Assembly: GCF_040907265.1 (NCBI RefSeq)
Contig: NZ_JBFOHP010000002.1
Location: 4,402,001-4,466,000, forward strand
DNA: 64,000 nt
Direction: 5' to 3'
Origin: Streptomyces sclerotialus
GTDB lineage: Bacteria; Actinomycetota; Actinomycetes; Streptomycetales; Streptomycetaceae
Shown here: positions 44,234 through 59,021 of the stretch, one piece after another
How the letters are laid out: each line of letters begins with the position of its first letter
Numbering within the stretch: the stretch's first letter is position 1
Program-made: the position numbers and the translations under genes
The notes under the pieces: generated by a model
What the model was told of the DNA's origin: nothing
The model's database searches: none
What the model saw: the letters and a program-made list of their open reading frames with translations, nothing else

Positions 44234-44833
44234 TCAGCCTTCGGCGGTCACCGGCGTCCGGGCCGGCATCGGGATCTCGAAGTGGACCGTCTCGACACCC
44301 GGCCCGTGCTCGCCCGTCGCGCGGGCGTCGAAGACCTCGTCCGCCAGGCTGCGCCAGAAGGCGCCGCTGCCCTCGACCTTGACGTTGGTGTGCAGGTAGA
44401 TACGGGCGTATCCGGGGGTGTCGGCCACGAAGGCGCAGGCCTGCCGGACCATGGTGCGGGCCAGTCCGTGCCGCCGGTGGGCCGGGTCGACGTAGACGCG
44501 GACGAGCTGGGCGGTGGAGCCGGACGGGTAGCGGTCGGCGAGCCAGCGGGGGTGCGGCGGATGGGCGGGGCCCGCCGACCGGATGCCGGTGGTGCCGACC
44601 ACCTCGCCCTCGTGCACGGCGACGAGCAGCAGGTGGCGCGGGTCGTCGAGGTAGGTCGCGTGGATGTCGACGATGTCGTGGTGCCACTGGGGCACGTAGC
44701 CGTAGTCGAATTCCCGGTAGAGCGTGTCGAGCATGACGCGGCGGGCGCCCGCGACATCGGCGGGGGTGGCGGCCCGGATGGTGTACGGGGAGGCGCCGGG
44801 CGCCGCGGCGCGCCGGTTGTCGGTGACAGTCAT
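44234..44833 (-). CDS. GNAT-family N-acetyltransferase
   Basis: A 199-residue protein from ATG 44833. The GNAT core shows YTIRAATPADVAGARRVMLD, LLLVAVHEGEVVGTTGI, and the acetyl-CoA loop VRVYVDPAHRRHGLARTMVR. The end (YARIYLHTNVKVEGSGAFWR) is motif B. It lies 22 nt after the secreted peptidase gene on the same strand, so it is probably in the same metal-responsive transcript. Substrate unknown. Confidence 0.9.
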   Translation of the reverse strand: MTVTDNRRAAAPGASPYTIRAATPADVAGARRVMLDTLYREFDYGYVPQWHHDIVDIHATYLDDPRHLLLVAVHEGEVVGTTGIRSAGPAHPPHPRWLADRYPSGSTAQLVRVYVDPAHRRHGLARTMVRQACAFVADTPGYARIYLHTNVKVEGSGAFWRSLADEVFDARATGEHGPGVETVHFEIPMPARTPVTAEG

Positions 44834-44855
44834 GAGTTTCCGTGCTTTCCGGGGG

Positions 44856-46349
44856 TCAGGGCGTCGGGAGGCCGGGGCCGGTGCAGTGCACGTCGGCCGA
44901 CGGTACGGTCCCGGCCACCAGGTACGCGGCAGCCGCGCCGTCCACGCAGGCGTTGCCCCGGCTGGCGAACACCCCATGGGAGTAGTCGTCGTGCAGGGTG
45001 ACCAGCCGGGAGCCGGGCAGCCGCCGCTGCATCGCGCGGGCGCCCGCGATCGGCGTGACGGGGTCGTGCTCGGAGGCGACCAGGAGGACGGGCGGTGCCG
45101 CGGGGCTGCCGAGCGCGGTGCGGTGGGTGGGCCGGTGGTGCCAGTACGCGCACACCGGTGCCTCCATTCCGGTGAGTACCGGCTGCGGGTCCAGCCGCCG
45201 CATCCGGCGCAGGTCGGTGAGCACGCGCGCGGGCGTGGGCCCGGGGCCGTCGGCGCACTTGACGGTGCGGTTGGCGGCCTCGTAGGTGCGTGAGTCGGCG
45301 CCGTCGAAGGGTTCGGCCGGGCGGAGCGCCTCGACGTCCCCGTCCCGCAGGTAGCCGCGGATGCCGTCGGCGAGGCCCGCCCAGCGTTCGGTACGGCCGA
45401 GCGCCCGGTACACGGCCCGGTCGAACTCCGCGGCGCCGAAGCCGGCCACGGGGCGGGCGGCGAGGCCGTCGCGGGCGCGCTGGTAGGCGGCGCGTACCTC
45501 GGTGGCGCTGCCGCCCAGTCCGAAGCGCTTGCCGTGTCCGGCGGCCCAGCCGAAGAAGGTGTCGCGCTGCCGCAGCAGGGCCCGGCTCTGCCGGAGGTCG
45601 AAGTCGTACCAGTCCTCGGGTCCGACGACGCTGTCGAGCACCATCCGGCCGACCCGGTGCGGGAATCGGGCGGCATAGGCGGCGCCGAGGTACGTCCCGT
45701 AGGACACGCCCAGGTAGCCGATCTTCCGCTTGCCGAGGGCCGCGCGGATCGCGTCCATGTCGCGGGCGGTCTCGGTGGTCGAGAGGTGCGGGAGGGCGTC
45801 GCCGACCCCGGTGGCGCAGTCGCCGGCGGTGCGCCGGAGGGAGTCGAGGTAGCCGCGCTCGGCGGCCGGGTCCGTCGGCACCGGGTCCTGGCCGGGCGCG
45901 TCGAAGAGACCGCCCATCGGGCCGCAGTCGGCGGGCGCGCTGCGCCCCGTGCCGCGCGGGTCGAATCCGATCACGTCGTACGAACGGCGCACGCTCTCGG
46001 GGAGCTTGGCGCGCTTGGTGACGGCGTACGGGAGGCCGGAGCCGCCCGGGCCGCCCGGGTTCACCAGCAGGACGCCACGCCGCTCGGCGGCCGGGCCTGA
46101 GGCCGGTACGCGCGAGACGGCGATGCGTATGTGCCGGCCCTCGGGGTGGTCGTGGTCCAGCGGCACGCTCAGCTCGCCGCACTCGACGCGGTCGGGGGCC
46201 GGCGGGTCCGGTACGGAGTCGGGGCAGGCGCCGAAGTGCAGGCCGGGCGGCCGGGGCGGGGCGGCATGCGCGGGGGCGGCGGGCAGGACCGCGGCGGCGG
46301 TGGCCGCGAGGGCGCACAGCAGGCCGGATCGGCGGACGACGGTGGTCAC
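44856..46349 (-). CDS. secreted alpha/beta-hydrolase, tripeptidyl-aminopeptidase type
   Basis: A 497-residue protein from GTG 46349; TTG 46388 is an alternative 13 codons upstream. The signal peptide is VTTVVRRSGLLCALAATAAA to APAHA (about 1-30). LLVNPGGPGGSG is the oxyanion region, GYLGVSYGTYLGAAYA the nucleophile elbow, and VASEHDPVTP plus HDDYSHGVF supply the Asp and His. The TAP C-terminal domain is present. It belongs to the Streptomyces Tap/SlpD-E group that removes short N-terminal peptides. It is divergent from the candidate metallophore operon, sharing its palindrome. Confidence 0.9.
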   Translation of the reverse strand: MTTVVRRSGLLCALAATAAAVLPAAPAHAAPPRPPGLHFGACPDSVPDPPAPDRVECGELSVPLDHDHPEGRHIRIAVSRVPASGPAAERRGVLLVNPGGPGGSGLPYAVTKRAKLPESVRRSYDVIGFDPRGTGRSAPADCGPMGGLFDAPGQDPVPTDPAAERGYLDSLRRTAGDCATGVGDALPHLSTTETARDMDAIRAALGKRKIGYLGVSYGTYLGAAYAARFPHRVGRMVLDSVVGPEDWYDFDLRQSRALLRQRDTFFGWAAGHGKRFGLGGSATEVRAAYQRARDGLAARPVAGFGAAEFDRAVYRALGRTERWAGLADGIRGYLRDGDVEALRPAEPFDGADSRTYEAANRTVKCADGPGPTPARVLTDLRRMRRLDPQPVLTGMEAPVCAYWHHRPTHRTALGSPAAPPVLLVASEHDPVTPIAGARAMQRRLPGSRLVTLHDDYSHGVFASRGNACVDGAAAAYLVAGTVPSADVHCTGPGLPTP

Positions 46350-46398
46350 AGATCTCGCATTCAGGGCAGTGGCGGGGACACCGCGCAATCGGGTGACT

Positions 46399-46419
46399 TG
46401 AAAACGATTATCGTTTACA
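46399..46419. promoter_or_regulatory. 21-bp Zur-like palindrome between divergent operons
   Basis: The arms TG-x-AAACGAT and ATCGTTT-x-CA match around the central T at 46409, with 9 of 10 arm positions complementary. The left part differs from the published S. coelicolor Zur consensus (TGAAAATGATTTTCA) at three of 15 bases. It overlaps the minus-strand -10 element. Confidence 0.75.
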
Positions 46420-46434
46420 GTGTGGGGCGGTCAA
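46407..46434 (-). promoter_or_regulatory. candidate promoter of the secreted peptidase-GNAT operon
   Basis: On the minus strand TTGACC (46429-46434) and GATAAT (46407-46412) are 16 nt apart, close to the vegetative consensus. The -10 lies inside the palindrome, so a bound repressor would block it. Confidence 0.6.
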
Positions 46435-46507
46435 GCCGGACGGCTCTTCCGAGCACGGGGGTCCGGCACGGCCGACGACCGCAACTCACCGCTGGAAAAG
46501 GGGAATC

Positions 46508-47764
46508 GTGGCTCATCTGCTGATGGTCGAGAGCTGGGTCGGAGCGATGAGCAGGCTGTTGCCGCGCGCGATCCGCGAGGGCGGGCACGAGTTCACCTTC
46601 CTCACCCGCGACCTGCACCACTACCTGCGCAGCGCGCCCGAGGGCACCGCCCACCCGCTGCTCGGCGCCCGCAACGTGCTGACCGCCGACACCAACGACC
46701 TGGACACGCTGCTGCCGTACGCCGAGCGGCTGCACGCCGCGCTGGGCTTCGACGGCGTGATCACGTCCTGCGACTACTACCTGCCGACCGTCGCCCGGAT
46801 CGCCGGCCATCTCGGCCTGCCGGGTCCGGCCCCGGAAGCGGTCGAGAACGCCTGCCGCAAGGACGCCACCCGCCGCGTGCTCGCGGAGGCCGGACTGCCC
46901 CAGCCGCGGTTCGCGGTCTGCGCCGACCGGACCGAAGCGGCCGCCGCCGCGGCGGACATCGGCTACCCGCTGGTGCTCAAGCCCGTGGACCTGTGCGCCG
47001 GGATGCTCGTACGCCAGGTTGCGGACGAGGCGGAGCTGCAGCGCGCCTACCGCGCGGTCGAGGACTTCCCCGTCAACGCGCGCGGCCAGCGCCGGGCACC
47101 CGTCGTCCTGCTCGAAGAGCTGCTGACCGGTCCCGAAGTCAGCGTGGAGACCGTGACGCACGGCGGCAGCACGCACGTCGTCGGGGTCACGGACAAGAGC
47201 GTGGGCGGCGCGCCGGCCTTCATCGAGACCGGGCACATGTTCCCCGCTGCGCTCTCCGCCGCCGACGCGGAGGCGGCGGCCGACACGGCCGTGCAGGCGC
47301 TCAAGGCCCTCGGTCTGGACGGCGTCGTCGGGCACACCGAGATCAAGCTGACGCCCGGCGGCCCGCGCGTCGTCGAGGTCAACCCGCGCCCGGCCGGCAA
47401 CCGCATCACCGAACTGATCCGCCATGTCTCCGGCATCGACGTGGCCGCGGCCTGCGTGGACGTCGCGCTCGGTGACCGGCCCGACCTGACCGTACGGGAC
47501 ACCGGACTGCGCAGCGCCGCGATCGGCTTCCTCGTACCGGAGGAAGCGGGCGTGCTGGACGGTGTCGACGGCGGCGACGCCGTACGGGAGGCGGACGGCG
47601 TGCTGGAACTCCAGCTCGCCGAGCCGGGGAAGGCCGTGAAGGCGGCGGGCAGCAACAACGAGTACCTGGGCCACGTCATGGCCGGGGACCCGGACGGGCC
47701 GGGCGCCCGTGCCCGCGTCGAGGAGCTGCTCTCCGGGCTGCGCCCGCGGGTGGCGGCCCGATGA
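46508..47764 (+). CDS. ATP-grasp ligase, amino-acid ligase type
   Basis: A 418-residue protein from GTG 46508 (AAGGGG 5 nt upstream). The pre-ATP-grasp part has MAHLLMVESWVGAMSRLLPR. The ATP-grasp fold (about 105-310) has GYPLVLKPVDLCAGMLV, VLLEELLTGPEVSVETV, and the metal-binding end VVEVNPRPAGNRITELI. The family (L-amino-acid ligases such as BacD, and carnosine-synthase-like enzymes) makes a peptide bond via an acyl phosphate. As first gene of the operon it would join the amino acids of the proposed metallophore. Confidence 0.9.
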   Translation: MAHLLMVESWVGAMSRLLPRAIREGGHEFTFLTRDLHHYLRSAPEGTAHPLLGARNVLTADTNDLDTLLPYAERLHAALGFDGVITSCDYYLPTVARIAGHLGLPGPAPEAVENACRKDATRRVLAEAGLPQPRFAVCADRTEAAAAAADIGYPLVLKPVDLCAGMLVRQVADEAELQRAYRAVEDFPVNARGQRRAPVVLLEELLTGPEVSVETVTHGGSTHVVGVTDKSVGGAPAFIETGHMFPAALSAADAEAAADTAVQALKALGLDGVVGHTEIKLTPGGPRVVEVNPRPAGNRITELIRHVSGIDVAAACVDVALGDRPDLTVRDTGLRSAAIGFLVPEEAGVLDGVDGGDAVREADGVLELQLAEPGKAVKAAGSNNEYLGHVMAGDPDGPGARARVEELLSGLRPRVAAR

Positions 47765-48636
47765 GCCCCGCGGCCGACGGTCCCTGTACCGCCGCCTCCT
47801 ACGACGACCTGGTGGCCGGTGTCCTGGCCGGTGCGTACGGGCCCGACCCCGCAGGCCTGCGGATCTCCGTGGCCTTCAGCACCCGGCAGGCCGTACGCCA
47901 CGCCGGGCGCAGCGGCGGCTACCGCAACGAGGTGCTCAGCCTCCGGCTGGGCGCGGCGGTCGGCTCCTGCGCGGTGGAGCCCGGCGCGCTGACCGACGCG
48001 GCCGTCGAGGCCTGCGTCGGCGCCGACGTGGCCACGCTGCTGGGCCACGAGCTGCTGCCCGTACGGGTGGCGGCGCTGGACGCGTACCTGATGCACGTCC
48101 TGCCGCACGAGTCCGCGAGCGGCGCCCGGCCCTTCCCGCTGCCCGCCGGCAGCTCGCTGGAGAAGTCCCGGGCCCGGGCGCGGGCCGTCGTCGAGCTGAT
48201 CGACGCGCCGCCCGGCGCGCGCGTCCTGGTCGTCGGCGTCGTCAACTCGCTGCTGGAGGCGCTGCGCGAGCGCGGCCTGGCGTACGTGCCGTGCGACCTC
48301 AAGGGCGGGACGACGGAGTGGGGCGAGCCGGTCGTCACCGACGCGCTCGCCGAGCTGGACCGCTGCGACGCGGTGCTCGCGTCCGGCATGACGCTGGGCA
48401 ACGGCAGTTTCGAGGCGCTGCGCGCGCACGCCGCCGCGCACGGCACACCGCTCGTGATGTTCGCGCAGACCGGAAGTGCCGTACTGCCGCGGTTCCTCGG
48501 GGCCGGGGTGAGTGCGGTGTGCGCCGAGCCGTACCCGTTCTTCTGGCTGGACGGCGGGCCGGGGACCGTCCACCGGTACGCCGGCACGACGGCCGCCGCC
48601 GACCGCCGCGCCGCCGCCTCCGGAGCCGCCGCATGA
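47761..48636 (+). CDS. DUF364-type putative heavy-metal-chelation protein
   Basis: A 291-residue protein overlapping the ligase stop by ATGA. The N-terminal part (about 10-110) resembles DUF4213 (GLRISVAFSTRQAVRHAG, LGHELLPVRVAALDAYLMHV). The C-terminal part (about 150-270) is the Rossmann-like DUF364 (ARVLVVGVVNSLLEALRERG, DAVLASGMTLGNGSFEALRA, GTPLVMFAQTGSAVLPRFL). Such proteins are often encoded with metal or molybdate transport genes. The actual activity is unknown; here it could bind metal or the chelator. Confidence 0.82.
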   Translation: MSPAADGPCTAASYDDLVAGVLAGAYGPDPAGLRISVAFSTRQAVRHAGRSGGYRNEVLSLRLGAAVGSCAVEPGALTDAAVEACVGADVATLLGHELLPVRVAALDAYLMHVLPHESASGARPFPLPAGSSLEKSRARARAVVELIDAPPGARVLVVGVVNSLLEALRERGLAYVPCDLKGGTTEWGEPVVTDALAELDRCDAVLASGMTLGNGSFEALRAHAAAHGTPLVMFAQTGSAVLPRFLGAGVSAVCAEPYPFFWLDGGPGTVHRYAGTTAAADRRAAASGAAA

Positions 48637-49748
48637 CCACGGCCGTCCTGCCCACCACCGCCAACCCGCACCTGCTCGGCCTGCTCGGCCGCTCCCCGCT
48701 CGCCCGGATCACCACCGGCCTGCCCTGCCCGCACCCCGGCTTCTGGGCCAAGCTCGAAGGGCTCGCCGCGGGCGGCATGAAGGCGCGCGCCGCCGTGTCG
48801 ATGCTGCTGGGCGCCAAGGAGCGCGGCGAACTCCGGCCCGGCGCCCCGGTCGTGGAGTCCACCTCCGGCACCCTCGGCATCGGCCTGGCCTTCGCGGGAC
48901 AGGCCCTCGGTCACCCCGTCGTCCTGGTCGGGGACACCGAACTGGAGCCGTCGATGCGGCAGTTGCTGCGTACGTACGGCGTCCGGCTGGAGCTGGTGGA
49001 CCGCCCGGCGGCCGAGGGCGGCTGGCAGGCCGCGCGGCTGGACCGGCTGCGTGCCCTGCGGGCCGAACTGCCCGACGCGTACTGGCCCGACCAGTACAAC
49101 AACCCCGACAACGTCGCCGGGTACGCCTCGCTGGCCGCCGAGATCGCCGCCGACCTGGACCATCTCGACGTCCTGGTGTGCAGCGTCGGCACCGGCGGCC
49201 ACAGCGCGGGCATCGTCGGCCCGCTGCGCCGGCACTGGCCGGACCTGCGGCTGATCGGCGTGGACGCCACCGGCTCCACGATCTTCGGACAGCCCGCCAG
49301 GCCCCGCCTGATGCGCGGCCTCGGCAGCAGCATCCACCCGCGCAACGTCGCCTACGACGCGTTCGACGAAGTGCACTGGGTCGGCCCGGCCGAGTCCGCC
49401 GACGCCTGCCGCCGGCTGGCCGCCGGCAACTTCGTCAGCGGCGGCTGGAGCACCGGCGCGGTCGCCCTGGTCGCCGCCTGGGCGGCGCGCGTCCACCCGG
49501 GCGCGGTCGTCGCCACCGTCTTCCCCGACGGGCCGCAGCGCTATCTCGGCACCGTCTACGACGACGACTTCGCCACCGCGCACGGACTCGACCTGGCCAC
49601 CGCCGCCACCCGCCCCGTCGAGATCCCGCACCCGCGGGCCGCCGAGGCCACCGGATGGACGCGCTGCCGGACGGTCACCGACCCGCTCGCCGCCCCGTCC
49701 CCCGCCCCGACCCCCACCCGCACCACCCCCTGGGAAGGGACCCCGTGA
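48633..49748 (+). CDS. cysteine-synthase-like PLP enzyme
   Basis: A 371-residue fold-type II PLP protein overlapping its neighbours by 4 nt at both ends. Schiff-base Lys50 lies in AAGGMKARAAVSML; VESTSGTLGIGLAFAGQ is the substrate loop and VGTGGHSAGIVG the phosphate cup. The substrate loop differs from ordinary CysK (TSGNTG) and recalls SbnA, which makes a 2,3-diaminopropionate precursor. I infer that it makes a beta-substituted alanine for the operon product. The last 30 residues are a Pro/Thr tail. Confidence 0.9.
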   Translation: MTTAVLPTTANPHLLGLLGRSPLARITTGLPCPHPGFWAKLEGLAAGGMKARAAVSMLLGAKERGELRPGAPVVESTSGTLGIGLAFAGQALGHPVVLVGDTELEPSMRQLLRTYGVRLELVDRPAAEGGWQAARLDRLRALRAELPDAYWPDQYNNPDNVAGYASLAAEIAADLDHLDVLVCSVGTGGHSAGIVGPLRRHWPDLRLIGVDATGSTIFGQPARPRLMRGLGSSIHPRNVAYDAFDEVHWVGPAESADACRRLAAGNFVSGGWSTGAVALVAAWAARVHPGAVVATVFPDGPQRYLGTVYDDDFATAHGLDLATAATRPVEIPHPRAAEATGWTRCRTVTDPLAAPSPAPTPTRTTPWEGTP

Positions 49749-50845
49749 AGCTCAGCCAGCGCACCGTACGGCTCCGGCTCACCGAGCCGCTGCGCATCTC
49801 CCGCTCGACGATGGCGGCCCGCGACGCCGTCTGGCTCGCCGTCGAACACCAAGGACAGCGCGGCTACGGCGAGGCCGTGGCCAGCGTCTACTACGGCCTG
49901 GACGCCGACACCATCGGCCGGCTGCTCAGCGAGACCGCGCTGGAGCTCGCCCGCTTCGACGGCCCAGAAGCGGCGCTCGACGCGCTCCGCGCCGGGGAGC
50001 TGCCGGCCCCGGGCACCCCGCCCGCCGTGACCGCCGCCGTCGAGTCGGCCCTGCTGGACCTCGTCGGCAAGCGCGCCGACACCCCCGTGCACCGGCTCCT
50101 CGGCACCCACGAAGCGCCGCGGGCCGCGACCGCGCGCACCATCGGCATCGGCTCCCGCCGCGCCGCCGGGGAGGAGGCCGGCCGGCTGGCCCGGCACGGC
50201 TTCTCCGTCATCAAGGTCAAGGCCGGTTCGCCCGACCCCGAGGACGACCTGGAGCGCGTGCGCGCGGTGCGCGAAGCCGCGCCGTACGCCCGGCTGCTGC
50301 TCGACCCCAACGGCGCCTGGACCACCGCACAAGCCACCGCGCTGCTGCCCCGGTACGCCGAGCTGGGTGTCGAGGCCGTCGAGCAGCCGCTCGCGCCCGG
50401 CGACCCGGAGGCGCTGGCCCGGCTCGCCGAGCGCTCCCCGCTGCCGGTCGTCGCCGATGAGGACGCGGTCGGCTTCGAGGACGCCCGGCGGCTGGCCGGG
50501 CGGGTGCACGGCATCAACGTCAAGCTCGCCAAGTGCGGCGGCGTGCACGCCGCCCTGCGCATCGCCGGACTGCTCGCGGGCAGCGGCACCGACCTGATGC
50601 TGGGCTGCCTGACCGCCAGCTCGCTCGGGCTCGCCCCCGCCGTCCACCTCGCCGACCGCGCCCGCTGGGCCGACCTCGACGGCCACCTGCTGCTCGCCCA
50701 CGACCCCTGGACCGGCATCGGCGGCACCGACGGCACCGTACGGGCCGGCCGCGGACCGGGCCTGGGCGTACGCCCGGTACCCGGCGCCGACCTGCCGCAC
50801 CCGGCACCCGACCCGGCCGGTCCCGCCGCGGAGGTGCCCCGGTGA
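49745..50845 (+). CDS. enolase-superfamily dipeptide epimerase-like enzyme
   Basis: A 366-residue protein from GTG 49745. Lys157-Val-Lys159 (FSVIKVKAG), metal ligands Asp187 (LLLDPNGAW), Glu213 (VEQPLAP) and Asp238 (VADEDAV), and the second acid/base Lys in INVKLAKCGG (260-263) are all present. This is the muconate-lactonizing subgroup containing L-Ala-D/L-Glu epimerases. In this operon it may invert a residue of the ATP-grasp product, or act as an N-succinyl-amino-acid racemase. Confidence 0.9.
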   Translation: MKLSQRTVRLRLTEPLRISRSTMAARDAVWLAVEHQGQRGYGEAVASVYYGLDADTIGRLLSETALELARFDGPEAALDALRAGELPAPGTPPAVTAAVESALLDLVGKRADTPVHRLLGTHEAPRAATARTIGIGSRRAAGEEAGRLARHGFSVIKVKAGSPDPEDDLERVRAVREAAPYARLLLDPNGAWTTAQATALLPRYAELGVEAVEQPLAPGDPEALARLAERSPLPVVADEDAVGFEDARRLAGRVHGINVKLAKCGGVHAALRIAGLLAGSGTDLMLGCLTASSLGLAPAVHLADRARWADLDGHLLLAHDPWTGIGGTDGTVRAGRGPGLGVRPVPGADLPHPAPDPAGPAAEVPR

Positions 50846-52110
50846 CGAAGATCTGGCACGAGATGCGCGGCTTCCCGCTCGCCATCCGCCTCCTGCTGGT
50901 CAACCAGCTCGGCGTCAACACCGGCTTCTACCTGCTCATCCCGTACCTCGCCGTGCACCTGGGCGAGGACCTGGGGATGTCGGCGGCGGTCGTCGGCATC
51001 GTCCTCGGCGTCCGCAACCTCAGCCAGCAGGGCCTGTTCCTCATCGGCGGCTCGGCCGCCGACCGGCTCGGCGCCCGCGGCGTCATCATCGCGGGCTGCG
51101 CCCTGCGCACCGTCGGCTTCGCGCTCTTCGCGCTCGGCGACGGACTGGCCGTCCTGCTCGCCGCCTCCGTCCTCAGCGGACTGGCGGGTGCGCTGTTCAA
51201 CCCGGCCGTACGGGCCTACCTCGCGCAGGAGGCGGGGGAGCGGAAGGCCGAGGCGTTCGCGCTGTTCAACGTCTTCGCGACCACCGGCGCGCTGGTCGGC
51301 CCGCTGCTCGGCAGCGCCCTGCTGCTGGTCGACTTCCGGGCCTCCGCGCTCACCGCCGCCGCGATCTTCGCCGTACTGACCGCGGCCCAGGCCGCCGTGC
51401 TGCCCGCCCGCTCCGTCGTGCCCACGAAGAACTCCGTCCTCGGTGACTGGCGCGAGGTCGTCGGCAACCGTGTCTTCCTGGCCTTCGCGCTGGCCATGGT
51501 CGGGATGTTCACCATGGAGAACCAGCTGTACCTGCTGCTGCCCGACGGCGCCCGCCGGGCCACCGGCTTCGACGGCGCGGCCGGCCTCGTCTTCCTCGTC
51601 GGCACCGTCGCCAACCTCACCCTCCAGCTGCGCCTGACCCGCGCCCTGAAGGCGCGTGGCAGCCGGGCCCGCTGGGTCGCCGCCGGACTCGGCCTGATGG
51701 GTCTGGCGTTCGTCCCGCCGATGGCCGTCGCGGGCCTGACCGGGCCGCCGGGGAGCGTAGGCGTCGCCGTGCTGCGCGCACTGCCCGTACTGGCCGGGGC
51801 GCTGCTGCTCTACCTCGGCGTCATGATCGCCCAGCCGTTCGTGATGGAACTGATCCCCGACTTCGGCCGCGCCGAGCTGACCGGTACCTATTTCGGCCTC
51901 TTCTACGTCGTCTCGGGCATCGCCGCCGCCGTCGGCAACACCGTCGTCGGCTGGGCCATGGACACCGGCGGGCACACCGGCGCCGCCTGGCTGCCGTGGG
52001 CGTGCTGCCTGGCGTTCGGGCTGCTGTCCGCCGCGGGGGTGGCCTGGCTGCACCGGCTGCGCGGACTGCCGGACCGTACGCCCGCCGGAGCCGTGGGGGT
52101 GGCGGCGTGA
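50842..52110 (+). CDS. MFS exporter, DHA1 (12-TM) family
   Basis: A 422-residue permease from GTG 50842, overlapping both neighbours by 4 nt. It has LVNQLGVNTGFYLLIPYLAV in TM1, GGSAADRLGARGVIIAG as motif A, and ATTGALVGPLLGSALLL in TM5. Relatives include MdtH-like exporters. Placed between the biosynthesis genes and the importer, it most likely exports the product, as CntE does for staphylopine. Confidence 0.9.
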   Translation: MTKIWHEMRGFPLAIRLLLVNQLGVNTGFYLLIPYLAVHLGEDLGMSAAVVGIVLGVRNLSQQGLFLIGGSAADRLGARGVIIAGCALRTVGFALFALGDGLAVLLAASVLSGLAGALFNPAVRAYLAQEAGERKAEAFALFNVFATTGALVGPLLGSALLLVDFRASALTAAAIFAVLTAAQAAVLPARSVVPTKNSVLGDWREVVGNRVFLAFALAMVGMFTMENQLYLLLPDGARRATGFDGAAGLVFLVGTVANLTLQLRLTRALKARGSRARWVAAGLGLMGLAFVPPMAVAGLTGPPGSVGVAVLRALPVLAGALLLYLGVMIAQPFVMELIPDFGRAELTGTYFGLFYVVSGIAAAVGNTVVGWAMDTGGHTGAAWLPWACCLAFGLLSAAGVAWLHRLRGLPDRTPAGAVGVAA

Positions 52111-52952
52111 CGCTCATGAGAGGAACCGCCGTGCACAGCGGCACCCGACCGGTCGACGACCCGTCGGCCCGCAACCTCCTGACCGACAACCCCGAGCTGT
52201 ACGAGGCCCGGTTCCCCGACGACGAACGGCTGGCCGGCCGCTGGGCCGAGGACTGCCTGCTCCGCCACGGCGCCGGGCCGCGCGTCCTGGACATCGGCTG
52301 CGGCACCGGGCGGGACGCCGCGTACCTGTACCGCGTGGGCCGTTCCGTCGTCGGCGCCGACCTCTCCGAAGCGATGCTGGCGTACGCGCGCACGCACCAC
52401 CCCGGGCCCTCGTACGTACGGGCCGACCTGCGCCGCTTCCGCTTCCCCGAGCGGTCCTTCGACGCCGTCGTCTGCCTGGACAGCGCCCTGCTGTACTGCC
52501 ACACCAACGACGACCTCGACGGCTTCCTCGCGTCCTGCCGGCGGAGCCTCACACCGGGCGGACTGCTCGTCGCGGAGATGCGCAACGGCGCGTTCTTCCT
52601 CGGCCGTACCGAACTCCTCGACGCGCCGACCACCAGCGGCTTCACCTGGCAGGGCACCACCTGGACCGCGACCACCACCCTCACCGTCGACCGCGCCGCG
52701 CAGCTGCTGCGCCGTACCCGCGTGTGGACCGCAGACGACGGCACCCCGCCGCACGAGCAGCGCTCCGCGTGGCGGCTGCTCTTCCCCCAGGAGCTGCGCC
52801 ACGTCCTCGCCGCGCACGGCTTCGAGGTACTGGACCTGCACGACGGACCGGGACCGCGCACGGAGCCCGCCTGGCAGGAGGGCGACGACCCCGGGAGGTG
52901 CCTGGACGCCGACCGGCTGCACGTCGTCGCCCGGCTGACGCACACCGCCTGA
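52107..52952 (+). CDS. class I SAM-dependent methyltransferase
   Basis: A 281-residue protein from GTG 52107. Motif I is RVLDIGCGTGRDAAYLY (about 55-70); VVGADLSEAMLAYAR and DAVVCLDSALLYCHTNDDLD follow, and the C-terminal lid is typical of small-molecule N- or O-methyltransferases (Methyltransf_25/11). The last gene of the coupled biosynthetic block; the importer starts 45 nt later. It could methylate the proposed chelator. Confidence 0.9.
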   Translation: MTLMRGTAVHSGTRPVDDPSARNLLTDNPELYEARFPDDERLAGRWAEDCLLRHGAGPRVLDIGCGTGRDAAYLYRVGRSVVGADLSEAMLAYARTHHPGPSYVRADLRRFRFPERSFDAVVCLDSALLYCHTNDDLDGFLASCRRSLTPGGLLVAEMRNGAFFLGRTELLDAPTTSGFTWQGTTWTATTTLTVDRAAQLLRRTRVWTADDGTPPHEQRSAWRLLFPQELRHVLAAHGFEVLDLHDGPGPRTEPAWQEGDDPGRCLDADRLHVVARLTHTA

Positions 52953-52997
52953 CCGAACCCGTTCGTACCGCGTACCCCGTACCCGAAGGACACCGCC

Positions 52998-54587
52998 ATG
53001 CCCCCTGCTCCCCTCGACGACTCCCGCTTCCCCGGCCTGCGCCGCCGGGGATTCCTCGCAGCCGCCGGCGGCGTGGCCGGGCTCGGCGCGCTCGCGCTGG
53101 CCGGCTGCGGCGGCCCCGGCGGCTCCGGTGCCGCCGCGGGCGGCGGCAGGCCCCGGCGCGGCGGCACGCTGCGGGCCGCGTTCGCCGGCGGCGGCGCGAG
53201 CGAGACCCTCGACCCGCACCGCACCAACCTCTTCGCCGACGCCGCCAGAGCCAAGGCCCTCTTCGACAAGCTCGCCGACTACGGGAACGACCTCTCGGCG
53301 CAGCCCCGGCTGGCCGCCTCCTGGGAGCCCGACGACGGCCTGAGCCGCTGGCGGGTGAAGCTGCGCAAGGCCACCTTCCACGACGGGAAGCCGGTGACCG
53401 CCGCCGACGTCCTCTACAGCTACCGCCGCATCGCCGACCCCAAGGAGGGTTTCCGCGCCAAGGCGTCCCTGGAACCCATCGACCTCAAGGCCAGCCGGGC
53501 CGTCGACGACCGCACGGTCGAGTTCGTCCTGAAGCGCCCCACCGCCGAATTCCCCAACGTGATGGCGGCGTTCGGCGCGTACATCGTCCCCGAGGGCGCG
53601 CGTGAGTTCGACAAGAAGCCGGTGGGCAGCGGCCCGTTCCGCTTCGTCTCCTTCAAGCCCGGCCGCTCCACCGTCGTCGAGCGGTACGACGACCACTGGG
53701 ACGGCGCGCCGTACCTGGACCGCCTGGAGTTCGTGGTCGCCAACGAAGAGTCGGCCCGCGTCAACTCCCTCCTCGGCGGCCAGGTCGAGTACGCACACGA
53801 ACTGACCCCGACCACCGCCCGCGCCCATGAGGGCAAGGGGCAGATAGAGATCGTCCGGCTGCGCAACAGCGCCATGCAGGCGTTCGCCATGAAGACCGAC
53901 CGGGCGCCGTTCGACGACGAGCGGGTCCGCGAGGCGTTCTTCCTCATCGCCGACCGCAAGGAGCTGGTCGAGGGCGCCCTGTCCGGCGCCGGCGAGATCG
54001 GCAACGACCTGTTCGGCAAGGGCTACGAGTACTACGCCGACGGCCTGCCGCAGCGCACCCAGGACCTGGACAAGGCCCGCCACCTGCTGAAGAAGGCGGG
54101 TGCCGACGGCCTGAAGGTCACCCTGGACACCTCCGACGTCGCCGCCGGCTTCACCGAAGCCGCGTCCATCTTCCGCGACCAGGCGGCCAAGGCCGGGGTG
54201 CACGTGAAGGTGCGGACGGGCAGCAAGGACACCTACTGGGCCGACACCCTGGACTCCGGGACGCTCGCCAGCTACCGCTCCGGCGCCATGCCCATCGAGT
54301 CCCACATCTCCCAGCGCCTCCTCACCGACTCCACCACCAACGCCACCCAGTGGCACCACAAGGACTTCGACGCCCTCTACCAGCAGGCCCAGTCGACCAA
54401 GGACAAGAAGGAGCGGGCCGCCGTCTACGAGCGGATGCAGCGCCGCCTGTACGCCGAGGGCGGCTTCCTGGTCTGGGGCTTCGCCGACTGGATCCTCGGC
54501 ACGGCCAGGAACGTCCGCGGCGTCACGCACCAGGCCCCCGCCAACACCCTGCACTGGGCCCGCTTCGACAAGGTGTGGCTGGCGTGA
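52998..54587 (+). CDS. ABC importer lipoprotein, SBP family 5 (Opp/Dpp/Nik)
   Basis: A 529-residue protein. The signal has twin Arg (LRRRGFLAAAGGVAG) and lipobox LALAGC with Cys37, so export may use Tat and the mature protein is lipid-anchored. The SBP_bac_5 body has LDPHRTNLFADAA, WRVKLRKATFHDGKPVTAAD and DKKPVGSGPFRFVSFKPG. This family binds peptides, nickel or metal-opine complexes such as CntA. It heads a complete transporter set with GTGA overlaps. Confidence 0.93.
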   Translation: MPPAPLDDSRFPGLRRRGFLAAAGGVAGLGALALAGCGGPGGSGAAAGGGRPRRGGTLRAAFAGGGASETLDPHRTNLFADAARAKALFDKLADYGNDLSAQPRLAASWEPDDGLSRWRVKLRKATFHDGKPVTAADVLYSYRRIADPKEGFRAKASLEPIDLKASRAVDDRTVEFVLKRPTAEFPNVMAAFGAYIVPEGAREFDKKPVGSGPFRFVSFKPGRSTVVERYDDHWDGAPYLDRLEFVVANEESARVNSLLGGQVEYAHELTPTTARAHEGKGQIEIVRLRNSAMQAFAMKTDRAPFDDERVREAFFLIADRKELVEGALSGAGEIGNDLFGKGYEYYADGLPQRTQDLDKARHLLKKAGADGLKVTLDTSDVAAGFTEAASIFRDQAAKAGVHVKVRTGSKDTYWADTLDSGTLASYRSGAMPIESHISQRLLTDSTTNATQWHHKDFDALYQQAQSTKDKKERAAVYERMQRRLYAEGGFLVWGFADWILGTARNVRGVTHQAPANTLHWARFDKVWLA

Positions 54588-55588
54588 CCGCCGTCGGAGC
54601 CCCCGAAGCCGCGCGCGCCCTCAAGGGCGCGCGCGGCACCGGCCTGCGGTCCTGGGTGGTCCGCAGGCTGCTGCTCGGCGCCGGCCAGACCGTGGCCGTC
54701 GTCCTGCTGGTCTTCGCCCTCACCGAGGCGCTGCCGGGCGACGCCGCCGTCGCCCTCGCCGGCGACCAGCCCGACCCGGCGCGCATCGCGGCGATCCGCG
54801 AGGCCCTGCACCTGGACCGGCCGGCCCACGAACGCCTCGCCGCCTGGGCGGGCGGCCTCCTCCACGGCGACCTCGGCACCTCCCTCACCTCAGGGCGCCC
54901 CGTCGTCACGTACCTCGCGAACGGCGTCGGTCCGACCGTGCTGCTCGCCGCCCTCACCGTCGCCCTGCTCGTACCGGTCTCCGTCGGCCTCGGCGTCCTC
55001 GCCGCGCGCCACGAGGGCCGGTTCGCCGACCGCCTCGTCAGCTCGGTGACGCTGGGCGTCTACGCGGTACCGGAGTTCGCCTTCGGCGTCCTCCTCGTCA
55101 CGGTCTTCGCGCTGCGCCTGGGCTGGCTGCCGCCGACCGCCGTCGGCTACGGCAGCGACCTGCTCGCGCACCCCGAGGCGCTGGTCCTGCCGGTCCTGGT
55201 GCTGCTCGCCCGGCCGGTCTGCTCGCTGGCCCGGCTGGTGCGCGCCGGCATGATCGACGCGCTGGCGTCCCCGTACGCCGCACAGGCCCGCCGGTACGGC
55301 ATCGCAGGCGCCCGCATCCGGTACCTGCACGCCCTTCCCAACGCCGTCGCGCCCGCCGCCCAGCAGCTCGCGCGCACCATCGACTGGCTGCTGTGCGGCG
55401 TCATCGTCGTGGAGGCCCTCTTCGTGATACCCGGCCTGGGCACGGTCCTGATGAACGCCGTCGCGGAGCGCGACGTCCCCGTCATCCAGGGCCTGGCGGT
55501 GGTCTTCGGTCTCACCGCCGTCGTCCTGAACCTCGCCGCCGACCTGGTGGCCCGCCGCTTCGCCCCGCGCGCGGGGGTGGCCGCGTGA
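54584..55588 (+). CDS. ABC importer permease, DppB/NikB type
   Basis: A 334-residue permease from GTG 54584, overlapping the lipoprotein stop by 4 nt. Six helices are predicted. The start has RRLLLGAGQTVAVVLLVFAL with TEALPGDAA; the EAA-loop region is IDALASPYAAQARRYGIAGA and the end is VVEALFVIPGLGTVLMNAVA, as in the BPD_transp_1 Dpp/Nik family. It pairs with the next gene. Confidence 0.93.
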   Translation: MTAVGAPEAARALKGARGTGLRSWVVRRLLLGAGQTVAVVLLVFALTEALPGDAAVALAGDQPDPARIAAIREALHLDRPAHERLAAWAGGLLHGDLGTSLTSGRPVVTYLANGVGPTVLLAALTVALLVPVSVGLGVLAARHEGRFADRLVSSVTLGVYAVPEFAFGVLLVTVFALRLGWLPPTAVGYGSDLLAHPEALVLPVLVLLARPVCSLARLVRAGMIDALASPYAAQARRYGIAGARIRYLHALPNAVAPAAQQLARTIDWLLCGVIVVEALFVIPGLGTVLMNAVAERDVPVIQGLAVVFGLTAVVLNLAADLVARRFAPRAGVAA

Positions 55589-56472
55589 GTTCCTCCGTAC
55601 GTACACCGGCTCCCGCCCGGCGCCTCGCGCGCGTGCCCCGCCCGGGGCGGTTCCTCCTCGGCCTCCTCCTTGTCGCCGTCCCCCTGCTGATCGCCCTCCT
55701 CGGTCCGCTGGTCGCGGGTGAACCGGGCCCCCGCGCCGCCTCCTTCACCCTCGGCGGCGGGCACTGGGCCGGCACCGACTTCGTCGGCCGGGACGTCTGG
55801 CGGCAGGTACTGCTCGGCGGCCGCACCGTCGTCCTCACCGCGCTCTCCGCGACGGCCCTGGCGTACGCGGTGGCCCTGCCGCTCGGCCTGATCAGCGCGC
55901 TGACCCACCGCGGCTGGCTCGAAGACCTCCTGATGCGCCCCCTGGACGTGCTCCTCGCGATCCCGTCCCTGCTGCTCATCCTCCTCGTCGCGGCCGTCTT
56001 CGCACCGGGTGCCGTGGGGCTCGCGCTGCTCGTCGCCCTGGTCAACATCCCGGACGCGGCACGCATCATCCGCGCCACCGCGGCCGAGGCGGCGGCCCGC
56101 CCCGCCGTCGAGGCGCTGCGGATGCAGGGCGAGACGTGGTGGCGGATGGCCGTGGGCTACGTCGGCCGCTCGGCCCTGCGCACCCTCGCCGCCGACGCCG
56201 GTACCCGGCTGACCGGCGTCCTGTACCTCGTCGCCACCGCCGCCTTCCTCGGCGTCGGCGTGGCCCCGGACGCCGCCGACTGGGCGGTCATGGTCGACCG
56301 CAACCGCACGGGCCTCTTCGTCCAGCCCTGGGCCGTCGTCCTGCCCGCCCTCCTGATCGTCGCCCTGACCATGGGCGGCAACCTGCTCTTCGACGCGGCA
56401 CTGACCGGACGGGCGCGTGGCACGGCGGCCCGCCGCAGACGGTGGCCGGCACGGAAGGAGAACCGCTCGTGA
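55585..56472 (+). CDS. ABC importer permease, DppC/NikC type
   Basis: A 295-residue permease from GTG 55585, overlapping the preceding gene by 4 nt. FLLGLLLVAVPLLIALLGPL is the first helix. HWAGTDFVGRDVWRQVLLGG is the conserved GTDxxGRD loop of DppC-type subunits; PSLLLILLVAAVF and EALRMQGETWWRMAVG mark the coupling-loop region. Its GTGA stop overlaps the first ATPase gene. Confidence 0.93.
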   Translation: MSSSVRTPAPARRLARVPRPGRFLLGLLLVAVPLLIALLGPLVAGEPGPRAASFTLGGGHWAGTDFVGRDVWRQVLLGGRTVVLTALSATALAYAVALPLGLISALTHRGWLEDLLMRPLDVLLAIPSLLLILLVAAVFAPGAVGLALLVALVNIPDAARIIRATAAEAAARPAVEALRMQGETWWRMAVGYVGRSALRTLAADAGTRLTGVLYLVATAAFLGVGVAPDAADWAVMVDRNRTGLFVQPWAVVLPALLIVALTMGGNLLFDAALTGRARGTAARRRRWPARKENRS

Positions 56473-57584
56473 ACGGCGCCACGCCCACCTCGCTGTACGC
56501 CGCGGACGCACCGGTCGCGGAGATCGTGGACCTGCGGGTGGTGATCGACGACCCGGGGAACGGAACCGGTGCGGACGGCACCGGCCGCCCCCTCGTCGAC
56601 GGCGTCAGCCTCCGCCTCCACCCCGGCCGGATCACCGCACTCGTCGGCGCCTCCGGCAGCGGCAAGACGACCACCGGGCTGGCGCTGCTGGGCGAGTATC
56701 CGCAGGGAGCCCGGGTGACCGGCGAGGTACGCGTACCGGACGGCCTCGTCGGCTACGTCCCCCAGCACCCCGCCGCGGCCCTCAACCCCGCCCGCCGCGT
56801 CGACGCCCTCCTCCGCGACATCGCCCGCGCACAGGTACGCGACCTGCCCCGCAGGGACCGCCGCACGGCCGTCACCGAACGCATCCTGCGCGCCTGCGCC
56901 GATGCCCAGCTCGGTGACGCCGAGACCCTGCTGCGCCGGTACCCGCACCAGCTCTCCGGCGGTCAGCAGCAGCGTTTCGTCCTCGCCCAGGCCCTCCTGA
57001 CCGGGGCCCGGGTGGTGGTCGCCGACGAACCGACCACCGGCCAGGACGCGCTCACCAAGCGCCGCATCGTCGAACAGCTCGCCGCGCTGGCCCGCCAGGG
57101 CATCGCCGTTCTCCTCCTCAGCCACGACCTGGACGTCGTCCGCGCCCTCGCCGACGACATCCACGTCATGCGCGCCGGCCGCGTCCTGGAATCCGGCCCG
57201 GCGGACCAGCTCCGCCTCGCACCCCAGCACCCCTGGATCCGCGACCTTTTCACGTCCGAAGCACCGCCCCCGGAGAGCACACCCGCGGCTGTCAGTACCC
57301 CCGACGATGATTCCGCAGCCCGGCAAGCCGCCGAGGGCCCCCTGCCCCCCGACGCCCCCCCTCCTCCGCATCCGCTCCCTGACCGCCCGCCACCACCGCA
57401 CCCCCGTCCTCCACCTCCCCGGCCTCACCCTCAGCGCCGGCGAGTGCCTGGCCGTGGTCGGCCGGTCGGGCAGCGGCAAGACGACCCTCGGCCGCTGCGT
57501 GGCCGGCCTCCACCGGGCCTACGACGGCGAGATACTGCTCGACGGCACGGCCCTCCCGCGCAGCCTCCGGGCCCGCACCCGTGA
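56469..57584 (+). CDS. ABC importer ATPase, domain 1 (DppD-like), frame runs on into the next gene
   Basis: The nucleotide-binding domain (about 15-260) has Walker A GASGSGKTTTG, Q-loop YVPQHPAAALNP, signature LSGGQQQRFVLAQALL, Walker B VVVADEPTTGQD and the switch His in LLSHDLD. The normal domain ends near 57290. The frame stays open to 57584, over 278 nt of the next ATPase gene, with Pro/Arg-rich residues that read as a shadow. Deleting one C in the C7 tract at 57355-57361 would join the two domains as one two-domain ATPase. Confidence 0.85.
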   Translation: MNGATPTSLYAADAPVAEIVDLRVVIDDPGNGTGADGTGRPLVDGVSLRLHPGRITALVGASGSGKTTTGLALLGEYPQGARVTGEVRVPDGLVGYVPQHPAAALNPARRVDALLRDIARAQVRDLPRRDRRTAVTERILRACADAQLGDAETLLRRYPHQLSGGQQQRFVLAQALLTGARVVVADEPTTGQDALTKRRIVEQLAALARQGIAVLLLSHDLDVVRALADDIHVMRAGRVLESGPADQLRLAPQHPWIRDLFTSEAPPPESTPAAVSTPDDDSAARQAAEGPLPPDAPPPPHPLPDRPPPPHPRPPPPRPHPQRRRVPGRGRPVGQRQDDPRPLRGRPPPGLRRRDTARRHGPPAQPPGPHP

Positions 57585-58134
57585 GCAACTGGCCGCCGTC
57601 CAGTACGTCTTCCAGGACGCCCGCGCCGCCTTCGACGAACACCGGCCCGTCCTGGACCAGGTGGCCCGTACCGCCGTCCGGCTGCGCGGCCTACCCACCG
57701 CGGCGGCCCGCACCGAGGCGGAGCACACCCTCGCGACGCTCGGCCTCCCCGCCGCACTCGTACGCCGCCACCCCCAGCAGCTCTCCGGTGGCGAACTCCA
57801 GCGCGCGGCCCTGGCCCGCGCCCTCCTCGCCCACCCCCGCGTACTGATCTGCGACGAGATCACCTCAGGCCTGGACACCCTCACCCGCCGGGCCCTCCTC
57901 ACCCTCCTCACCGACCTCCTCCGCACCCGCCCCGACCTGGCCCTGATCCTGATCACCCACGACCGCGACACCGCAGCCCTCGCCACCCACACCGCCGTCC
58001 TGGACACCGGCCGCCTCGCGGAACAAGGCCCCACGGAACAGCTCCTCACCGCCCCTCAGCACCCGGTGACGGCGGCACTCCTGCAATCACCCGAGGCGGC
58101 GGGGGCGAAGGCGGTGGCCTTGAAGAACGTGTAG
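57307..58134 (+). CDS. ABC importer ATPase, domain 2 (DppF-like)
   Basis: From ATG 57307 (no clear ribosome site) 275 residues follow. The domain begins LLRIRSLTARHHRTPVLHL and has Walker A GRSGSGKTTLGRCVAGL, Q-loop YVFQDARAAFDEHRPVL, signature LSGGELQRAALARALL, Walker B VLICDEITSGLD and the switch His in LITHDRD. All ATPase motifs are intact. It is in the +1 frame relative to domain 1 and may once have been its C-terminal half. The 3-prime end overlaps a gene on the other strand. Confidence 0.88.
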   Translation: MIPQPGKPPRAPCPPTPPLLRIRSLTARHHRTPVLHLPGLTLSAGECLAVVGRSGSGKTTLGRCVAGLHRAYDGEILLDGTALPRSLRARTREQLAAVQYVFQDARAAFDEHRPVLDQVARTAVRLRGLPTAAARTEAEHTLATLGLPAALVRRHPQQLSGGELQRAALARALLAHPRVLICDEITSGLDTLTRRALLTLLTDLLRTRPDLALILITHDRDTAALATHTAVLDTGRLAEQGPTEQLLTAPQHPVTAALLQSPEAAGAKAVALKNV

Positions 58135-58919
58135 AGCAGGCTGCCGCCGTCGTCCGCGACCCGGCGCAGGTCGGCCATGGCCCGGTCCCATTCCTCGGCC
58201 GTGCTGAGCCCGGTGGCCACCGCCTGGTCACGTGCGGCGTCGAACAGCGCGATGAAGGTGTTGCGGGTGAACCCCTCCACGAGGGCGGGACGCGTGTGGT
58301 CCGCGTAGACCGTACGAGGCTCGACGTCGATGCCCTCGTACCCGGACGCCGCCAGCAGTGCGGCCAGCTGACGGCCGATCAGCGCGTTGCCGCCGGCTAT
58401 GGCCTGGAGCCGTGCCTGCTGGTCGATCGCCGCGCGGGCACGCGGGCTGTCGGGGTGGAGGACCGCGGAGCCGTGGTCCCCCTCGATCACGGTGAGCGTG
58501 CCGCCGGGACGCAGCACGCGGCGCAGCCCGGCCAGCACGCGCGCCGGGTCGGCCAGGTGCTCCAGCACGAAGCAGACGAAGACGTGGTCGAAGGCGCCGT
58601 CGGCGAACGGAAGGCGGTGCAGGTCGGCGCGCCGCCACTGCACCGCCGCCGTCGGTGCCCGGGCCGCGAGGCGGGCCCGGGCCTGGGCGAGGGAGTCAGC
58701 GGACCGGTCGACGGCGACGATGCGGGCCCCCGGACTGTGGGTGACCAGGTGCACGGTCTGCGCGCCGGTACCGCAGCCGGCCTCCAGCACCCGGCTGCCC
58801 GCCGGATACGCCGTCCCGTGGTGCAGCAGGGCCGCCAGCACCTCCGCCTGGTCGGTCAGCCGCCGGGCCTCGCGCTCCGAGTACCCGTGGACGTAAGCGC
58901 GTTCCTCGACCGTGGTCAC
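58056..58919 (-). CDS. SAM-dependent methyltransferase, UbiE/Methyltransf_11 type
   Basis: A 287-residue protein from GTG 58919 (GGAGG 6 nt upstream). It starts VTTVEERAYVHGYSEREARR; motif I is RVLEAGCGTGAQTVHLV, motif II IVAVDRSADSLAQA, motif III PFADGAFDHVFVCFVLEHLA. The body resembles small-molecule methyltransferases widespread in Actinobacteria. Its last 26 codons overlap the last 79 nt of the convergent ABC ATPase gene. It is divergent from the MocR gene, about 100 nt away. Confidence 0.87.
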   Translation of the reverse strand: MTTVEERAYVHGYSEREARRLTDQAEVLAALLHHGTAYPAGSRVLEAGCGTGAQTVHLVTHSPGARIVAVDRSADSLAQARARLAARAPTAAVQWRRADLHRLPFADGAFDHVFVCFVLEHLADPARVLAGLRRVLRPGGTLTVIEGDHGSAVLHPDSPRARAAIDQQARLQAIAGGNALIGRQLAALLAASGYEGIDVEPRTVYADHTRPALVEGFTRNTFIALFDAARDQAVATGLSTAEEWDRAMADLRRVADDGGSLLYTFFKATAFAPAASGDCRSAAVTGC

Positions 58920-58953
58920 GGTCCGCCTCCTTCTCCGTGGCATCCGTCATCAG

Positions 58954-58988
58954 TCATCCGTGATCTGTGATCTGTGATCCGTGATCCG
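58954..58988. repeat. five 7-bp direct repeats in the MocR promoter
   Basis: TCATCCG, TGATCTG, TGATCTG, TGATCCG and TGATCCG lie head to tail immediately upstream of a TTGACG -35-like element at 58989. The array lies between the divergent methyltransferase and MocR genes, where MocR regulators typically bind direct repeats. Confidence 0.75.
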
Positions 58989-59021
58989 TTGACGTCCTCA
59001 CCCTCGTCGGACAATGGACCG

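Follow-up and report, generated by a model that had tools for sequence, protein, structure and literature searches.

Staphylopine-type systems are under metal control. Coelibactin is made by nonribosomal peptide synthetases (NRPSs), and the biosynthesis of [S,S]-ethylenediaminedisuccinate ([S,S]-EDDS) proceeds without them. The staphylopine (cnt) locus combines the making of a small chelator with an exporter of the major facilitator superfamily (MFS) and an Opp-class importer (PMC7438024). Metallophores controlled by Zur are already known, coelibactin, EDDS and pseudopaline being described cases (PMC6103462). Of these, coelibactin is a Streptomyces zincophore, found in S. coelicolor (PMC5472717, PMC6103462), and [S,S]-EDDS is the zinc chelator of the actinomycete Amycolatopsis japonicum (PMC9252823, PMC6103462), whose EDDS genes were located through Zur sites (PMC12161575). 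Here we describe an operon of Streptomyces sclerotialus, contained in a 64,000-nucleotide stretch of contig NZ_JBFOHP010000002.1 (hereafter the window), in which biosynthetic enzymes, an MFS transporter and an Opp-class importer stand behind a Zur-type box. We consider it probable that this is an NRPS-independent zincophore operon, induced by zinc starvation to make, export and re-import a small zinc-binding molecule.

The operon and its conservation

Pfam and NCBIfam matches and a coordinate check place the operon at 46508-58134 on the forward strand, running from a ligase to an importer ATPase. The biosynthetic part encodes an ATP-grasp ligase of the L-amino-acid-ligase type (ATP-grasp_4 and LAL_C2; 46508..47764), a DUF364 protein (47761..48636), a pyridoxal phosphate (PLP)-dependent beta-replacement enzyme (48633..49748), an enolase-superfamily enzyme resembling dipeptide epimerases (49745..50845), an MFS transporter (50842..52110) and, by its Pfam match, a class I methyltransferase dependent on S-adenosylmethionine (52107..52952); every junction between these genes is a 4-nt overlap. 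After a gap of 45 nt come the substrate-binding protein (SBP_bac_5, here SBP5; 52998..54587), the Opp/Nik-class permeases B (54584..55588) and C (55585..56472) and the first half of a double ATPase (56469..57584; Pfam match from 56505, the frame extending beyond the homologous part), again joined by 4-nt overlaps. The second ATPase half (57307..58134), recognized by Pfam and by comparison with orthologs, shares with the first a long mutual overlap, unlike the junctions upstream. An earlier note on this DNA had started the run at 44234 and called its overlaps uninterrupted. All the parts that it named are present, and the overlaps are as described on either side of the 45-nt gap, but the run begins only at 46508, the stretch 44234-46388 being occupied by two genes on the opposite strand.

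DUF364 relatives were found in 67 of 150 sampled Streptomyces genomes. Forty of these genomes, the window's included, belong to a group with 69-100% identity (group A) and 27 to a second group whose DUF364 proteins are 39-47% identical (group B); one genome carries both and one has only a remote match, so that one or the other form is present in 66/150. Co-occurrence of the two groups in 1/150 genomes compares with 7.2 expected (P 0.001, shared ancestry ignored). Across a sample of the phylum, 7/396 genomes contained DUF364, six of them of the same genus, with the window's own among the matches.

The order and strand of the genes from the ligase to the first ATPase half, as called with an in-house GC-frame caller, are kept in 35/38 group A loci (41 found, minus the window itself and two on short contigs, G147 and G139). 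Among named genomes, represented by the best 80 of 210 ligase relatives and belonging, like the window, to Streptomyces save for one Wenjunlia, the same stretch is kept in 72 of the 80 loci; in six of the eight exceptions the contig or the locus stops short of the full stretch, and the remaining two (L249, L250) are genuine losses. Four further genera of the family (g240, g244, g249, g250; loci L145-L151) also carry the block. The concern voiced in the earlier note that the block might mostly occur without its importer was not borne out.

With enzymes, MFS transporter and SBP5/Opp importer in one conserved block, the locus has the make-export-import gene set of staphylopine, as had been proposed. 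It differs in having a ligase, an epimerase, DUF364 and a CysK2-type enzyme instead of nicotianamine synthase (NAS)/CntL and an opine dehydrogenase. None of the ten operon proteins scanned contains a CntL-type NAS domain, and PF03059 had 0 matches in the entire genome; no CntM-type opine dehydrogenase and no NRPS domain was found in the same ten proteins, the rest of the genome not having been searched for either. The absence of CntL, CntM and NRPS claimed earlier thus stands genome-wide for the first and within the locus for the other two. Moreover, the CntE model is missing from the NCBIfam matches of the MFS protein, and the binding protein scores 52.9 bits against the CntA model, whose cut-off is 800, which leaves a resemblance to staphylopine in logic rather than in shown descent. 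Membership among the opine zincophores was rejected on the lack of NAS and opine dehydrogenase in the locus and on the CntA score, and membership among coelibactin-type NRPS metallophores on the lack of NRPS modules in the proteins scanned. Our likening of the operon, with its Zur-type site, to the EDDS system follows the published description of EDDS rather than a gene-by-gene comparison. Because the locus lacks the defining features of each metallophore kind against which it was tested, and because no report on this operon was found among the open-licence papers listed by the searches, its enzyme set is best read as a new biosynthetic type among zincophore systems.

The promoter palindrome

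A 10-1-10 palindrome with one mismatch, TGAAAACGATTATCGTTTACA (46399..46419, + strand), begins 109 nt upstream of the ligase start and overlaps a -35-like hexamer, TTGAAA. In most orthologous promoters TGAAAAYGATTNTCG lies at a similar distance from the first gene. For an independent test we used the Zur 15-mer tGaNNatSatNNtCa as published for S. coelicolor (PMC5472717), taking as a site any match with two or fewer mismatches. Such sites were present in 34/39 operon promoters (window included), whereas 16/538 windows upstream of other genes at these loci had one, and in 77/80 promoters of the named set as against 43/1194 control windows; the two promoter sets overlap in some genomes. Promoters of the known target znuA had a site in 28/29 cases, one of 30 loci having been dropped for want of a gene call. 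Upstream of a changed copy of the block in another genus (L147) there is a perfect 7-1-7 palindrome with two mismatches to the 15-mer.

When a 15-base pattern derived from the orthologous promoters was run over the operon's own genome, it gave 30 matches, compared with 2 for the reversed pattern. Just two sites were free of mismatches: the one at the operon and a second located 67 nt upstream of a different SBP5 gene. Other matches precede znuA, another CobW gene and two genes of Fur-family regulators, and one lies in a block with genes for the ribosomal proteins S14, L28 and L31 and a CobW gene; neighbours were read at part of the 30 matches, not all of which have a neighbour resembling a Zur target. 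Described Zur targets of S. coelicolor include znuABC, yciC, rpmE2, rpmB2 and rpsN2 (PMC6103462, PMC5472717). Because the pattern also marks znuA, the S14/L28/L31 paralogues, CobW and Fur-family genes, the palindrome looks like a Zur box, in line with the Zur-like element noticed earlier, and a site of this type points to zinc as the metal. An explanation of the palindrome as a mere conserved -35 element was rejected since the same pattern marks Zur-type targets across the genome; it is true that TTGAAAA persists in promoters whose box has decayed.

The second mismatch-free site of the genome belongs to an SBP5/Opp-like importer (L135 6554-12700; G000:C2:7154554-7160700), and no genes resembling the operon's biosynthetic set were seen by eye near it in the 20 kb listed. 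The two additional Fur-family regulators preceded by Zur-pattern sites are at L136 9443-9913 and L137 5723-6136, and besides them a zur-like gene follows znuBC (L138 6363-6764).

The intergenic region with the box is shared between the operon and a divergent gene for a TAP-like alpha/beta hydrolase (44856-46388, - strand), which may also be controlled by Zur. Next to it lies a GNAT gene (44234-44833, - strand), both being identified by domain scan. Neither was accepted as part of the operon: they are on the opposite strand, and of the 74 loci of the named set that reach over 3 kb upstream of the operon, 26 have the GNAT gene divergent beside it and 38 the TAP-like gene. Downstream, a methyltransferase gene (58056-58943) and a MocR-type gene (58974-60728) were likewise rejected, each being present in 0/14 loci; most orthologous loci end near the ATPase.

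Biosynthetic enzymes and transporters

The ligase contains an ATP-grasp domain and scores 59.5 bits for LAL_C2 (Pfam cut-off 29.4), as expected of an L-amino acid ligase. Its nearest PDB chain by sequence is the L-amino acid ligase BL00235 (3vot), and the alanine-anticapsin ligase BacD is among its relatives. ATP-grasp ligases also build small antibiotic dipeptides, and the operon could accordingly provide a zinc-triggered antibiotic or signal, a Zur-controlled dipeptide that hits competitors or signals, with the importer recovering or sensing it. Ligase relatives of about 40% do occur with PLP enzymes at loci where no Zur-pattern site is present, and one such locus was shown to lie beside an NRPS. 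We nevertheless regard such a function as unlikely, given that the importer is retained with the enzymes (35/38 and 72/80 loci) and that importers of the FecBCD type, which serve for metal complexes, prevail in the second Zur-boxed family, group B. Proteins of about 755 aa in which a PLP enzyme is fused to an ATP-grasp ligase were observed at L152 9656-11923, L154 9682-11949 and L155 9445-11706, adjoining a lyase and a kinase of the GHMP type; L152, for which alone the domains were checked, lies beside an NRPS.

DUF364 has long been guessed to serve metal chelation. Both the domain score and the two-domain fold of the operon's protein fit the family (PF04016), and a sequence search returned no match in the PDB. 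Two Streptomyces (L083, L084) have DUF364 proteins of yet another type, a remote one (about 30%), near genes that look, by eye, like NRPS genes. The enolase-type enzyme scores below the cut-off of all NCBIfam epimerase models; in 38/38 rows it keeps K157/K159, D187, E213, D238, K260/K263 and D310/D312, residues that comprise the catalytic lysines and among which we take some to be metal ligands and the DxD to be the mark of a dipeptide epimerase.

For the PLP enzyme, SbnA of staphyloferrin B synthesis is the best match both in NCBIfam (TIGR03945, where it reaches 242.8 bits and the cut-off is 349.95) and in the PDB, and Arg132 and Tyr152 of the SbnA O-phosphoserine site are retained in 66/66 rows. 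SbnA Ser185 is changed to Gly in 66/66 rows, and no SbnB-type domain was found in the ten operon proteins scanned. In the tree, which has several long branches elsewhere, the enzyme stands apart from SbnA, from two proteins of its own genome that pass the SbnA cut-off and from the other cysteine-synthase-like proteins of that genome, and it is sister with support of 100/99 to group C, the CysK2 group. The enzyme was therefore rejected as a true SbnA; by its sequence it is a member of the CysK2 clade. Group C consists of CysK2-MFS pairs from mycobacteria and other Actinobacteria, its PLP enzymes being the nearest relatives (55-62%), and relatives of one group C protein bear the name CysK2 or O-phosphoserine-dependent S-sulfocysteine synthase. 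Arg135 and Tyr155 of the operon's enzyme occur in 66/66 rows of groups A and B and also in the group C rows of the tree. Judging from the conserved residues and from CysK2, the donor would be O-phosphoserine, and placement in the CysK2 clade means that the product should be an amino acid of either the C-N (diaminopropionate) or the C-S (cysteine) type.

This relationship invites another explanation, namely zinc-sparing sulfur or amino-acid metabolism, in which a CysK2-type cysteine derivative would be turned into a thiol buffer or a peptide, either one used inside the cell. The sister position of the PLP enzyme to the CysK2 group agrees with it, as does S-sulfo-L-cysteine, the product described for CysK2 (PMC11361707). 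With transporters inside the same conserved block and no sulfur-transfer domain detected by Pfam in the ten operon proteins scanned, we hold this to be very improbable.

As to transport, the importer ATPase is a double protein, with both halves in one frame in 29/29 orthologous loci readable for both. The MFS protein, whose relatives follow CysK2-type genes, is taken as the exporter and the SBP5/Opp system as the importer. A sequence search with the binding protein, which has a lipobox as judged by eye, yielded Opp-class proteins in large number without singling out a nearest function, and the structure model of this protein is of low confidence (mean predicted local distance difference test score, pLDDT, 47.4). 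The best NCBIfam scores of the importer parts are for nickel-type models, all below cut-off, and PLP-MFS pairs elsewhere lie in some loci near P-type ATPase/SCO1 genes, as one might expect if the metallophore were meant for nickel, cobalt or copper and Zur acted as a general starvation switch. The operon has its Zur-type box in common with znuA and ribosomal-protein paralogues, and a metal other than zinc seems to us quite unlikely.

Related loci and the proposed pathway

Group B comprises 28 loci, one of them from the phylum sample. A PLP enzyme about 30% like the operon's is present in 27 (26 under another filter), an MFS transporter in 27, a FecBCD-type permease in 24, an Opp permease in two (L036 and L038, about 50% like the operon's) and a GHMP-type kinase in 21, always within the fetched stretch; three loci have a Fur-family gene resembling that of L039. 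Zur-pattern sites occur in 25/28 loci, with 40 sites compared to 0 for the reversed pattern, and 23 loci have at least one site no more than 400 nt from a called gene start. As DUF364, PLP enzyme, MFS transporter, importer and Zur-type sites are common to two differently built loci, the product of the shared core is likely to be zinc-related.

The CysK2-MFS pair of M. tuberculosis belongs to the copper (RicR) regulon. Of the 20 loci read for group C, 18 have on the same strand, after the CysK2-type gene, an MFS gene whose product is 42-47% like the operon's, and it is the immediate next gene in ten such loci listed; three matches (G377:C100, G887 and G784, the last at 42%) were left out of the 20. 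The operon's ligase, DUF364, epimerase and SBP5 have no match in these 20 loci. Some of the pairs (L286, L297 and others) were seen near P-type ATPase, SCO1 or BlaI-type genes, neighbours that hint at a metal role of CysK2. From groups A, B and C together one may draw a bolder picture, which we consider possible rather than probable: DUF364 and the CysK2/SbnA-like PLP enzyme would form the common core of an entire class of pathways dedicated to zinc chelators, with two alternative forms, and the mycobacterial CysK2-MFS pair would be its minimal version, making and exporting a metal ligand and not only S-sulfocysteine. On this picture DUF364 would gain its first pathway.

Several observations weigh against a zincophore operon. 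The importer is missing at three Streptomyces loci (L060, L102, L103), and L149 and L150 show neither exporter nor importer, nor anything of the block beyond the epimerase, in the DNA read. In the window the two ATPase halves do not share a reading frame (56469-57584 as against 57307-58134), so that of the full importer claimed earlier all genes are present, and the transporter itself is either broken or affected by a sequence error in this assembly. Only weak sites were found in 5/39 promoters (L066, L095, L097, L101, L102) and in 3/80 (L253, L257, L267); three or four of the seven blocks from other samples and genera (L145-L151) are without a good Zur site, L149 and L150 showing no clear one and the palindrome of L151, weak backing for a Zur box, being four mismatches off the 15-mer. 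The group B loci yielded no counterpart of the operon's ligase, epimerase or methyltransferase, so the products of the two families must differ. Finally, at the 20 group C loci, whose pairs are the nearest kin of both the PLP enzyme and the MFS protein, no Zur-type site precedes the PLP gene, and the described product of CysK2 implies a part in sulfur metabolism and not in chelation (PMC11361707).

Gene content, order, conservation and the Zur-type box are established directly; from them we infer the reactions, the metal and the directions of transport of the zincophore pathway as follows. In the presence of zinc, Zur would sit on the promoter box and keep the operon off, as the site and the regulon suggest, and loss of zinc would free the promoter. 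The PLP enzyme would then combine O-phosphoserine with a nucleophile to give an unusual amino acid, which the ATP-grasp ligase would join to a second one, and the enolase-type enzyme would invert one alpha-carbon of the resulting dipeptide. DUF364, perhaps through a condensation, and the methyltransferase would complete the ligand. Once exported by the MFS protein, the ligand would return as its zinc complex through the SBP5 protein and the Opp-class ATP-binding cassette (ABC) transporter. The enzymes are consistent with the short, epimerised and methylated peptide foreseen in the earlier note.

A review of the field names coelibactin and EDDS as the metallophores under Zur control in actinomycetes (PMC6103462). 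To these the operon would add a compact gene set, free of NRPSs and equipped with an exporter, an importer and a Zur-type box, that is kept in many soil bacteria.

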